Part shown: positions 22,706-27,526 of the stretch, in pieces | Layout of the letters: every line of letters starts with the position of its first letter | Numbering within the stretch: position 1 is the stretch's first letter | Origin: Balneolales bacterium | GTDB lineage: Bacteria > Bacteroidota > Rhodothermia > Balneolales > Natronogracilivirgulaceae | Length of the DNA: 32,661 nt | Assembly: GCA_007135115.1 (NCBI GenBank) | Contig: SLJN01000171.1 | Location: 1-32,661 of the forward strand | Direction of reading: 5' to 3' | The notes under the pieces: generated by a model | Told to the model about the DNA's origin: nothing | Database searches by the model: none | Seen by the model: only the letters and a program-made list of their open reading frames with translations | Translations under genes and position numbers: made by a program

Positions 22706-23155
22706 TCAGGAACCGGACTCAATCATTAGTTTCCGTTTCGATTCTGATACATGATCAAATGTTACCCGAACAGTTGTGGCCGGCAACAGCTGCTCAATTC
22801 GGTCTGGCCATTCAATCAAAGAAATTCCGGAGCTGTTGATATAATTTTCCAGCCCGATTACTGTCGCCTCCTCTTCATCAGCAAGACGATAACAATCCAT
22901 GTGATAAACGGAATAACGGGCTTCATATTCATTGACAATCGCAAAAGTCGGAGAATCGACCTGATCGGGATTCCCGCCAAGCCCTTCTACCACACCCTTT
23001 ACAAAATGCGTTTTGCCGCTGCCCATTTCACCCGATAAAGCAACGACATCGCCAGGTTGAAGCTGTTCAGCAAAAGCCTGAGCTGCTTTAAGGGTTTCCT
23101 CAACTCCGTTGGTAATGATTTCTTTTCTTCCCCGAAAACTAATCTTCCTGCTCAT
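22706..23155 (-). CDS. tsaE: tRNA threonylcarbamoyladenosine biosynthesis ATPase TsaE
   Basis: Walker A LSGEMGSGKTHFVKG, DSPTFAIVNEY, YHMDCYRL. Confidence 0.95.
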   Translation of the reverse strand: MSRKISFRGRKEIITNGVEETLKAAQAFAEQLQPGDVVALSGEMGSGKTHFVKGVVEGLGGNPDQVDSPTFAIVNEYEARYSVYHMDCYRLADEEEATVIGLENYINSSGISLIEWPDRIEQLLPATTVRVTFDHVSESKRKLMIESGS

Positions 23156-24705
23156 CAGGATTTAGGCTTCATCGTCGCCACGGGCAGTATGACCTCCTCC
23201 ATGGAAGCTCCTCCATGCTGGAAGGTGTCTCTGTAGCGATTCTGATAGTGATGATAGTTCGTCGGGTAGATGAAGTAGTAATCTTCTTTTGCGATGATGT
23301 AATTGGTGCTTGCATTCATTCTGGGCAGCTTATAATCAAGCGGCCGGTCGATTATGATGGCCGAATCATGATCGCATTTTAAATGCCGCCCGAACTTGTA
23401 TCGCAGACTCGTTGAGGTATCACGATCCCCGAGAACTTTGGTATCTCGTAAGGAGCGGACACTGCCGTGATCGGTAGTCACTACGATGGTGATATCATGA
23501 TCCGCAAGCGTCTGAAACATTTGATAAAGCGAAGAGTGCTCAAACCAGGTTTTGGTAAGTGAGCGAAATGCTGAAACATCAGGAGCCAGTTCTTTCAAAA
23601 CCGTTGAGTCGGAGCGTGAGTGAACCAGCATATCCACAAAGTTTATCACAAAAGAGCTGAAACGATTCTGGGTATAATTGGAAATACGATCGGCTATTTT
23701 TTTGCCCTCATCTGCCTGAAGAATTTTTTCATATTTCGGACTGAAATCATAGCCGAACTTTTTGAATTGTTCGATCAAAAGTTCTTCTTCATACTGATTC
23801 AAAGAGCTTTCATTCTCATCGCCGTTCTGCCAGAGGTGTGGATATCGCTTTTGAATATCGAGCGGATACATTCCGGCAAAAATGGCGTTCCGAGAATACG
23901 GAGTGGCCGTGGGCAGGATCGAGTAGTGATAATCCATCTCGATATGATAAAACTTGCTGAGCATCGACTGGAAAACCAGCCACTGATCGTACCGCATGCA
24001 GTCGATCAGAAAAAACATGGTGGTTTTGCCTTCATCCAGATGCGGTTTCACATAATGGCTCAGTACATCCGGTGACAACACCGGGCGCTCCGGATAAGAT
24101 TCGGATAACCAGTGCTTGTATTCTTTTTCAAGAAACCGACCGAATTCCAGGTTAGCCTGCTGAAACTGATCATCCAGAACCTGCCGCAAACCTTCGTCGC
24201 TTCGCTCCAGCTCAATATCCCAACCCGTCAGTTTCCGGTAAATTTCAGTCCAGCCCTGCCAATCGGGCTGCTCGTTAATCTCCATGGAGATCCTGTTAAA
24301 ACTTTGCAGGTAACTCTGGGCCGATTTCTCGTCGCGGATTCGGCTGCGATCTAAAATCCGCTTGATGGTCAATAATATTTGATTCGGATTAACCGGTTTA
24401 ATCAGATAGTCAGAAATTTTCCCCCCGATGGCATCTTCCATGATGCTTTCTTCCTCACTTTTGGTAATCATGACGACCGGCAGGGTAGGACTGATGTCTT
24501 TGATTCCAGAAAGTGTCGTGATGCCGTCCATCCCCGGCATTTGTTCATCAAGAAATACAAGATCGAATGGCTCTTTTTCGATCAGCGATATAGCGTCACT
24601 ACCGTTTGAAACCGGTGTTACATCAAATCCCTTTTTTTCCAGGAAAATAATGTGTGGTTTCAGTTGTTCAATTTCATCATCAGCCCATATAATTCTTGTG
24701 CTCAT
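23155..24705 (-). CDS. porX: PorX-type response regulator with PglZ/alkaline-phosphatase-superfamily domain
   Basis: REC domain ([21 protein letters not shown]) fused to PglZ ([32 protein letters not shown]); TGATG overlap with tsaE. Confidence 0.92.
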
Positions 24706-24716
24706 CTACTTCGGTT

Positions 24717-25250
24717 TTATTCTAATGTGACATAGGGCCGGATGTTTTCAAGGCGGGCTTCTCCAATACCACGGACATTGCGCAGATCTGAAATCTCCTC
24801 AAAAGGACCGTTTTCTTCGCGGTATTCCACTATTCGTTCTGCGATGGCCGCTCCTACACCCGGCAATTCCTGAAGGCGGGTGGCATCTGCGGTATTGACG
24901 TTGATGGTATCGCGTTCCGACTCGGTGGTATCAGCGGAAACTTCCGCAGCCTTGCTACCGGCATTTGACTGTTTTGCTAACGCATCCTCGCCTGCGTTAG
25001 TGCCGCTTTCCGGAGGGGCTTGCGGATAATGCTGCGCTGCAATGAGGGAATCTTCGCGAAGTGCCTGTTCGCTAAGCTCTTTGAATTTGTCTTCGTAGTA
25101 AGCATAGAAATCATCGTCATACCCGGAGGGCTTTTCAAGTTGATGAAGCCCGCTAATCACAAACAGAATAGTAATCAATGTTATCATAGTACGCCTCTCT
25201 TTTACGGTTATTTGGAGACTTTCAAGCCAGAAAAAAAGCTTTCTCTTCAT
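24717..25250 (-). CDS. ComEA-like helix-hairpin-helix protein, predicted membrane-anchored
   Basis: N-terminal TM, C-terminal INVNTADATRLQELPGVGAAIAERIVEYREENGPFEEISDLRNVRGIG. Confidence 0.85.
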   Translation of the reverse strand: MKRKLFFWLESLQITVKERRTMITLITILFVISGLHQLEKPSGYDDDFYAYYEDKFKELSEQALREDSLIAAQHYPQAPPESGTNAGEDALAKQSNAGSKAAEVSADTTESERDTINVNTADATRLQELPGVGAAIAERIVEYREENGPFEEISDLRNVRGIGEARLENIRPYVTLE

Positions 25251-25349: not shown

Positions 25350-26546
25350 TTAAGGATTGGCCCGGTCTGCTCGTTTTCGCAATAACATGCTGGTGTTGAA
25401 GGAGTCTCCGTCTCTCATTACATCAATGTCAATAGAGTCGCCATGGCTGTATTGGTTGAATAACGCCTGGGTATGAGCATTACCCAGCAAACGCTGGTTA
25501 TCAACGCGCAACAGAACATCCCCCGGTAAAATGCCGCATTCGTAGGCGGGACCATCTTTATTTACGCTGAGTACCAGGAGCCCGTGATCTACATCCAGAT
25601 TGTACCTTTCGGCGACTTCGTTGGTAACAGGCACGGTTTCAAAACCAGGGTCAAAATCATGAACAATACTGCCGCCTTTTTTAAAAGCTTCAATGAGCGG
25701 TTTGATTCTGTTGCTTGGTATTGCAAACCCAAGACCAGGCTGAATTTGTGAGCGCTGACCTGTTTGAATCAGCGTATTGATGCCCAGGACTTTACCATTG
25801 GCATCAACCAGCGGGCCGCCGGCATTTGCCGGATTGATGGTGGCATCCGTCTGAATCATATCCAAATAGTAGCGATTACTTCGCGGGTCATGGCGAAGAC
25901 TTCGGTTTGATGCACTTACGACACCAACCGTCACTGTGGGCTTCCCGTCTTCATACATTCCCGTCGGATTACCGATTGCAATGACCCATTCGCCGATTTG
26001 AAGGGAATCGGAATCGGCAAATTCGACAAAATTAAAGGTGGTGTCGGCGTCAATTTTCAGCAGTGCAATGTCGGTTTGCATATCGGCATCAACCAGCGTT
26101 GCCGAAAATAGCTCACCGTCGTGAAGAGACACTTTAATTTTTTCTGAACCGTGGCTGCTGATATGCTCGTTGGTCAACACATACCCATCATCAGAGACGA
26201 TAAAGCCGGATCCAATGGTAGTATATTCCTGAGGTTGCCCCGGGTTATAGAAAAAACCTTCAAATAAATCAAACTCAAGGCTGCCGCGCCCTCCGGTTAA
26301 CTGTGTAGTTTTGATACCAACGACGGCTTTTGAAGACCGCTCAACGGCTGTTGTGATGGCTGTACTGCGAGAATGTTCGATATTGTTTCCCGCTTCATTC
26401 TGATTGGCTCGTTGCGAGGGGTTATCCTGGCGTTCATACTCCAATCCGTCACAGCTGATAAGTATAAATAAACTCAGCATCACACCCCCCACGCCGGAGA
26501 TCATACCCCGCACGGAAGCGATTATATTTGGTGCTGATTTATTCAT
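25350..26546 (-). CDS. HtrA/DegP-like S1C-family protein with PDZ domain; catalytic Ser replaced by Ala (predicted pseudoprotease); lipoprotein
   Basis: GYVLTNEHIS (His), TDIALLKID (Asp), INPANAGGPL in place of INPGNSGGPL, PDZ domain, lipobox LISC. Confidence 0.88.
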   Translation of the reverse strand: MNKSAPNIIASVRGMISGVGGVMLSLFILISCDGLEYERQDNPSQRANQNEAGNNIEHSRSTAITTAVERSSKAVVGIKTTQLTGGRGSLEFDLFEGFFYNPGQPQEYTTIGSGFIVSDDGYVLTNEHISSHGSEKIKVSLHDGELFSATLVDADMQTDIALLKIDADTTFNFVEFADSDSLQIGEWVIAIGNPTGMYEDGKPTVTVGVVSASNRSLRHDPRSNRYYLDMIQTDATINPANAGGPLVDANGKVLGINTLIQTGQRSQIQPGLGFAIPSNRIKPLIEAFKKGGSIVHDFDPGFETVPVTNEVAERYNLDVDHGLLVLSVNKDGPAYECGILPGDVLLRVDNQRLLGNAHTQALFNQYSHGDSIDIDVMRDGDSFNTSMLLRKRADRANP

Positions 26547-26557
26547 ATCTATTCAAA

Positions 26558-27526
26558 TCAATTAAGCTGTTTTGAAGCCTGATCCACAACATCTTTTACA
26601 GCCTGTTCAATCGGTCCGTCGTGCCATCCCCCGGCTGCTTTCTGATGTCCGCCACCCTCAAAATTACGGGCTAATTTATTCACGTCTAATGATGATTTTG
26701 ACCGTAAACTTAATTTGATCCTGCCATCTTTCTCACAAAGTAAAAAAGCCGCTTTGGTCTGTTTAAGACTGAGAGGATAAGCGACAAATCCTTCGAGATC
26801 AGCATAGGTGCATCCTGCCTCGTCCAGCGTTGCTTGAGTAACGCTCATCGTGGCAAGCTGATTGCTGTTAAACAGTTCAATCTTTTTTAGCGCCGCCCCC
26901 AACAACTTAAGGTGACGGATTTCATTATTGTCGTAAATGGCTTCGTGAATTTCTGGCGGCGAAAACCCACCGGATTCAAGCAAATCCGCTACAATGCGAT
27001 GAGTCTGCGGGCGAACCGAATCGAAGCGCAGCGATCCGGTATCGGTAATGATGCCGGCATACAGAGCTTTCGCCATTTCGGCAGTTACTGCCGATGAATC
27101 ATGCTCACAAATCAAATCATAAACCAGCTCGGCGGTGGATCCGATATCCGGTCTGGAAATACCATCATCAAACTCCATTTCAGGGTCCGGGTGATGATCA
27201 ATCATATAACACGGTCGCCCGGAGCTACCGAGCTGTGCAGCAACTTCTCCGAAACGGTCGAGTTTATTCCCGTCCAGGAAGACATAAGCCTCGCATTGAT
27301 TCACCACATTTGCGTCGGGCTGCTGAACAGGAAAGAAGGGCTCCATCCACTTGAGGTTATCCGGAAACGGGTCGGGGTTGAATGCAAAAATATTCTTGCC
27401 CATATTTTTCAGCCAAATACTTAAGGCAACCTGTGACCCAAGTGCGTCTCCATCAGGTCGTGCATGTGAAAAAACCCCTATCGTTTGGTGAGCTTTAAGT
27501 GCTTTTAGAAGCCTCGAATTCATCAA
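26558..27526 (-). CDS. nrnA: DHH/DHHA1 phosphoesterase, NrnA-like (oligoribonuclease / pAp phosphatase)
   Basis: SHARPDGDALGSQ, IDHHPDPE, C-terminal GGGHQKAAGG. Confidence 0.9.
   Translation of the reverse strand: MMNSRLLKALKAHQTIGVFSHARPDGDALGSQVALSIWLKNMGKNIFAFNPDPFPDNLKWMEPFFPVQQPDANVVNQCEAYVFLDGNKLDRFGEVAAQLGSSGRPCYMIDHHPDPEMEFDDGISRPDIGSTAELVYDLICEHDSSAVTAEMAKALYAGIITDTGSLRFDSVRPQTHRIVADLLESGGFSPPEIHEAIYDNNEIRHLKLLGAALKKIELFNSNQLATMSVTQATLDEAGCTYADLEGFVAYPLSLKQTKAAFLLCEKDGRIKLSLRSKSSLDVNKLARNFEGGGHQKAAGGWHDGPIEQAVKDVVDQASKQLN

Follow-up and report, generated by a model that had tools for sequence, protein, structure and literature searches.

The window, a stretch of 32,661 nucleotides from a Balneolales bacterium (contig SLJN01000171.1), contains a gene for an HtrA-type protein in which both the catalytic Ser and the Gly of the oxyanion hole are replaced by Ala. 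The protein is very likely a genuine and functionally retained pseudoprotease, a lipid-anchored HtrA with a single PDZ domain that would have arisen from an ordinary serine protease. It is probably a lipoprotein that depends on its PDZ domain to bind, hold or sense polypeptides. The genus of the window (g1) has two known species, the window genome and G015. A pseudoprotease had been predicted from the DNA of the window alone, and comparison with other genomes supports that assignment: the variant is fixed in both species, the gene is under purifying selection after the loss of Ser, and the oxyanion-hole Gly is lost as well.

HtrA proteins combine protease and chaperone activity, and the relative weight of the two is usually probed with engineered Ser-to-Ala mutants. 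Here such a mutant seems to have been made and kept by nature, in a family whose close relatives have the gene intact, further degenerated or not at all. With this natural series one can ask what an HtrA does apart from proteolysis, and whether inactivation comes after other HtrAs have made the enzyme redundant. HtrA pseudoproteases are already known from MamO and other magnetotactic cases (PMC4794232) and from plant Deg proteins (PMC3473262). A search of open-licence papers found no report of one in Balneolales. What is new is the lineage, the paired replacement of Ser and Gly by Ala together with constraint, and the intact, switched, degenerate and lost series inside a single family.

Gene, product and active site

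The ORF encodes a product of 398 aa, which includes TINPANAGGPLV. Its short N-terminus carries a lipobox and is followed by a trypsin-like domain and a single PDZ domain. The features of the gene are as follows.

25350..26546, minus strand: predicted HtrA-type pseudoprotease lipoprotein, 398 aa (Trypsin_2 and PDZ_2; TIGR02037 282.6 bits)
26451..26453, minus strand: predicted lipidated Cys32 of the lipobox LISC, Asp at +2 (sequence; Cys aligned in 5/5 family members)
25677..26366, minus strand: chymotrypsin-fold domain, residues 61-290, boundaries approximate (Pfam, structure model)
26163..26165, minus strand: His128 (TNEH), catalytic His position, retained (alignment)
26070..26072, minus strand: Asp159 (TDIALLKI), catalytic Asp position, retained (alignment)
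25953..25964, minus strand: residues 195-198, FGLF in intact orthologs and TGMY in the window and its sister species (alignment)
25827..25829, minus strand: Ala240, replacing the oxyanion-hole Gly (Gly193; Gly in 103/103 intact orthologs)
25821..25823, minus strand: Ala242, replacing the catalytic Ser (Ser195), codon GCC at 25823-25821 (sequence, alignment)
25737..25760, minus strand: loop L2, residues 263-270, remodelled and of low confidence in the model (alignment, model)
25365..25676, minus strand: PDZ domain, residues 291-394, boundaries approximate (Pfam, alignment)

The Trypsin_2 (111.5 bits) and PDZ_2 (37.7 bits) matches are both above their cut-offs and, together with the Foldseek results below, place the protein in the HtrA/Deg fold family, in which a trypsin-like domain is followed by PDZ. 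The protein has a single PDZ domain, and its score for TIGR02037 (Do family serine endopeptidase) is below the curated cut-off of 416.2. The lipobox Cys follows a hydrophobic segment (helix 16-29 in the model) and the product is predicted to be a lipid-anchored lipoprotein. A simple lipobox pattern is passed by 83/103 intact orthologs, and several of the others still have a Cys at this place. The PDZ domain, full-length frame and lipobox noted in the original prediction are thus all confirmed (PDZ_2, the 398-aa ORF and Cys32). The PDZ domain is followed at the C-terminus by LRKR in 5/5 family members (25365-25385 in the window), and a similar basic motif occurs in many other orthologs.

The coordinates and residues first given for the Ser to Ala change are correct, and the His and Asp that had been read as intact fall at the catalytic positions in the alignment. 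The window protein lacks two features of an active enzyme. The His-Asp-Ser triad is broken by Ser to Ala in both g1 species, and Ala240 takes the place of Gly193 in the oxyanion hole. The latter is a second lesion, beyond the one originally described: the Gly two residues ahead of the Ser is Ala in both g1 species. The number Gly193 (chymotrypsin numbering) was assigned from the position within the G-x-S-G-G motif. Like this Gly, the Ser at position 242 is found in 103/103 intact orthologs. In MamO, a residue other than Gly at position 193 has been argued to block the active conformation of the loop (PMC4794232).

The rest of the protease domain has changed in a similar manner in the two species. 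Where it departs from invariant columns, the new residue is identical in both for 16/18, and most of the changes in the substrate pocket (residues 195-198) and L2 are likewise to the same new residues. The g1 changes are concentrated around the active site (Fisher p 0.004), a descriptive result only, since the regions were drawn after the changes had been seen. The equivalents of the activation cluster, Arg215 and Gln232, whose roles were transferred by alignment from PMC11642142, are kept in g1 and are gone from the degenerate copies described below.

An AlphaFold model based on 12 sequences has a mean pLDDT of 71. Because of this modest confidence, and of a pLDDT below 50 in L2, the pocket of the model is unreadable in detail. 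The best Foldseek matches of the model are structures of DegP (E 1.4e-29), DegQ and AlgW, several of them engineered Ser-to-Ala mutants.

Orthologs, neighborhood and selection

The G015 copy (MAG contig SLQI01000272.1, Balneolales bacterium isolate CSSed165cm_526; also L036) has about 76-78% identity and carries NPANAGGP, as does the window protein. A sequencing or assembly error as the cause of Ala242 is ruled out by this independently assembled second species. Among the 245 genomes of the class that were scanned, DNA coding for NPANAGGP occurs in the two g1 species alone, to which the Ser to Ala form is confined. Almost every genome of the order has an ortholog, at 43-50% identity. In a triad table of about 140 HtrA sequences, His, Asp and Ser are all present in 103/103 orthologs, 102 from other families and one, that of G003, from the family of the window. 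The original prediction had named GNSGG in all orthologs at the locus as evidence against it; GNSGG is the rule beyond the genus, whereas inside it G015 has ANAGG. It had also called for canonical HtrA paralogs elsewhere in the genome, and there are two of the Do type (G000:C170, C213), both with GNSGG. They share 36-37% identity with the window protein, have a greater length of about 510 aa and show a second PDZ-like match. Six genomes outside the window's family (G112, G115, G120, G070, G091 and G103), several of them 98-100% complete, have no close ortholog, as sporadic losses.

The genes surrounding the HtrA gene were named to family from their sequences.

26558..27526, minus strand: NrnA/DHH-type phosphoesterase gene, 11 bp upstream; linkage kept across the order
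24717..25250, minus strand: ComEA-like helix-hairpin-helix protein, downstream
23155..24705, minus strand: PorX-like response regulator with a PglZ-type domain

The NrnA/DHH gene is beside HtrA in 27/27 ortholog loci checked in other families, and in the window's family it adjoins HtrA wherever HtrA is present. Since it adjoins across loci, the NrnA-linked HtrA forms a single syntenic lineage, separate from the Do-type HtrAs. The gene had been described as kept in a PorX directon. ComEA-PorX is indeed adjacent in g1, but the linkage that holds order-wide is the one to the upstream NrnA/DHH gene, and within the family direct adjacency of ComEA-PorX to HtrA occurs in g1 only. The order ComEA-PorX-TsaE (22706-25250) is family-wide and directly follows NrnA-HtrA in g1 only; in other family members two opposite-strand genes separate TsaE from NrnA. 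Most of the family has PorX, whereas G003 lacks a close one (best E 9.7e-15) at an estimated completeness of 92%.

Synonymous sites have reached saturation between the two g1 species (pS 0.78), and pN is 0.16, with 82% identity in the protease domain and 84% in the PDZ domain. The codons of the active-site motif differ synonymously (AAT/AAC, CCG/CCT, GCA/GCC, GGC/GGT) and the peptide NPANAGGPLVD is unchanged; therefore, the peptide is being kept. The gene is thus a case in which a catalytic residue is missing and purifying selection retains the gene, in line with the original view that it is not decayed. A decaying pseudogene in g1 was considered and is unsupported, given the purifying selection after the loss of Ser.

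The stem of g1 evolved rapidly. On the fixed species topology, the branch length of the protease domain is 0.747 on the g1 stem and 0.243 for the intact G003, the one sister species against which the acceleration was measured. The corresponding values are 0.459 and 0.603 for NrnA, and 0.103 and 0.088 for RpoB. Both HtrA domains have a g1 stem about three times the G003 branch, and no such excess is seen in NrnA or RpoB. For the protease domain, the HtrA/NrnA ratio inside g1 is back to about 0.5, like that of intact lineages. A change of function would give such a pattern, since a burst of change on the g1 branch was followed by constraint.

Proposed working mode

Since Ser and Gly have become Ala yet selection keeps the rest of the protein in two species, the window protein most likely now binds rather than cuts. 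In the g1 ancestor, the nucleophile Ser and the oxyanion-hole Gly would have changed to Ala and the pocket and L2 would have been rebuilt, after which the new sequence was presumably held constant. As its lipobox suggests, the protein would be exported by Sec and lipid-anchored on the periplasmic side, and it may form oligomers like other HtrAs. The PDZ domain could capture C-termini that are exposed or segments that are unfolded, and the inactive protease cleft could act as a groove that holds them. As cleavage would not follow, the outcome may be holding, sequestration or signalling. DegP S210A is protease-deficient and keeps chaperone activity (PMC5023192; PMC11642142). If the protein is a retained pseudoprotease, a role as a holdase or sensor has close to an even chance, and it overlaps with the regulatory role considered below.

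The window protein is similar to the S1C proteases of the HtrA/Deg family (DegP, DegQ, DegS and AlgW) in its chymotrypsin-like fold and PDZ, its His and Asp positions and the Arg and Gln of the activation cluster. With one PDZ and a membrane anchor it resembles DegS; however, its anchor is a predicted lipid rather than a transmembrane helix. It further differs from these proteases in the Ala at positions 195 and 193 and in the remodelled pocket and L2. The engineered DegP S210A, AlgW S227A and DegQ S190A, several with solved structures, carry the same Ser-to-Ala change that evolved naturally here. They are laboratory variants of otherwise canonical enzymes, and Gly193 is kept in the aligned AlgW example. 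Degenerate plant Deg proteins such as AtDeg16 are also natural HtrA homologs that lack a triad residue (PMC3473262), but they are eukaryotic and belong to other lineages with other lesions; Deg16 lacks the Asp.

The protein may instead regulate in trans, as a dead subunit that mixes with or competes against active HtrAs and so protects or delivers their clients. Active paralogs are found alongside in genomes of the family, magnetotactic bacteria repeatedly pair an active with an inactive HtrA paralog (PMC4794232), and the PDZ and activation cluster are retained in g1. However, the low identity and different architecture of the Do-type paralogs make co-assembly hypothetical. This role is overall rather unlikely, and it shares ground with the holdase or sensor role.

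Degenerate and absent copies in the family

Two other genera of the family have copies that are more degenerate than the window gene. The G019 copy (L009 150-1349) has lost all three triad residues (TKYR, YSGI, SSSEGG). The G001 copy (L029 1489-2643) has lost His and Asp and has Glu in place of Gly193, and a Ser can still be aligned with the nucleophile. Each of the two copies is full length, adjoins NrnA and keeps the Cys anchor. The mean identity to intact orthologs is 36% (G019) and 25% (G001) in the protease domain, and 43% and 40% in the PDZ domain. The two copies are 52% identical to each other in PDZ and 30% in the protease domain, which is evolving very fast.

In the five remaining genera of the family no copy was found beside NrnA or elsewhere, in genomes of which some are 93-98% complete and others fragmentary, and the gene appears to have been lost there. 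Hidden diverged copies were considered; a five-member profile retrieved just the Do-type paralogs. The gene is dispensable in near relatives, since sister genera either lack it or carry a copy that has degenerated further.

In the HtrA tree, a single clade of the four inactive proteins (AU p 0.546) does not decide between one and two inactivations. The RpoB tree groups the intact G003 with g1 (97/94) and comes close to rejecting the alternative (AU p 0.056). Two independent inactivations are therefore the favoured reading, though not proven. The fuller scenario is that the family inactivated the same ancestral lipoprotein HtrA twice by different routes, namely Ser and Gly to Ala with renewed constraint in one genus, and, in another clade, loss of the triad with nothing but the PDZ retained. 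This is conceivable, if somewhat less than probable. If true, it would imply that a PDZ-based non-catalytic function was the selected part and that proteolysis became unnecessary or harmful.

The degenerate and absent copies could also mean that selection on the protein is relaxed, and that it is on its way out after redundancy with the two Do-type HtrAs, with g1 less far along in this loss than its sister genera. The state of the sister clade and the fast protease domain of its remaining copies fit this explanation. However, the constraint on the g1 protease domain after the loss equals that of intact lineages, with both domains above 80% identity at saturated synonymous sites, and the new residues are common to both species. 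Even the degenerate copies are full length and keep the anchor and a PDZ that is better conserved than the protease domain. Relaxed selection is therefore improbable as an explanation for g1.

MamO is a precedent for a different use of the fold. Like the window protein it has an HtrA fold with the nucleophile replaced, no Gly at residue 193 and retention by selection, and its dead L1 loop accompanies a new ligand (PMC4794232). MamO has Thr and Glu at the nucleophile and 193 sites and binds metal through two His, whereas the window protein has Ala at both, and its score for the NCBIfam MamO model is 82 bits against a cut-off of 800. Its inactivation came without evident recent duplication. A repurposed metal-binding or other scaffold is very unlikely here, since no magnetosome genes are seen in the immediate neighborhood and the half conserved in relatives is the PDZ, which indicates peptide binding. 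Residual or unconventional protease activity is the least credible explanation, as the retained His and Asp in g1 are left without a nucleophile (A-N-A-G-G) and the oxyanion Gly is replaced too.

In G017 (L124 3487-4563) and G016 (L123 6615-7637), an SMP-30/gluconolactonase-like gene follows NrnA at the place expected for HtrA. A gene that resembles it by appearance adjoins the degenerate HtrA in G001 (L118 2767-3831).
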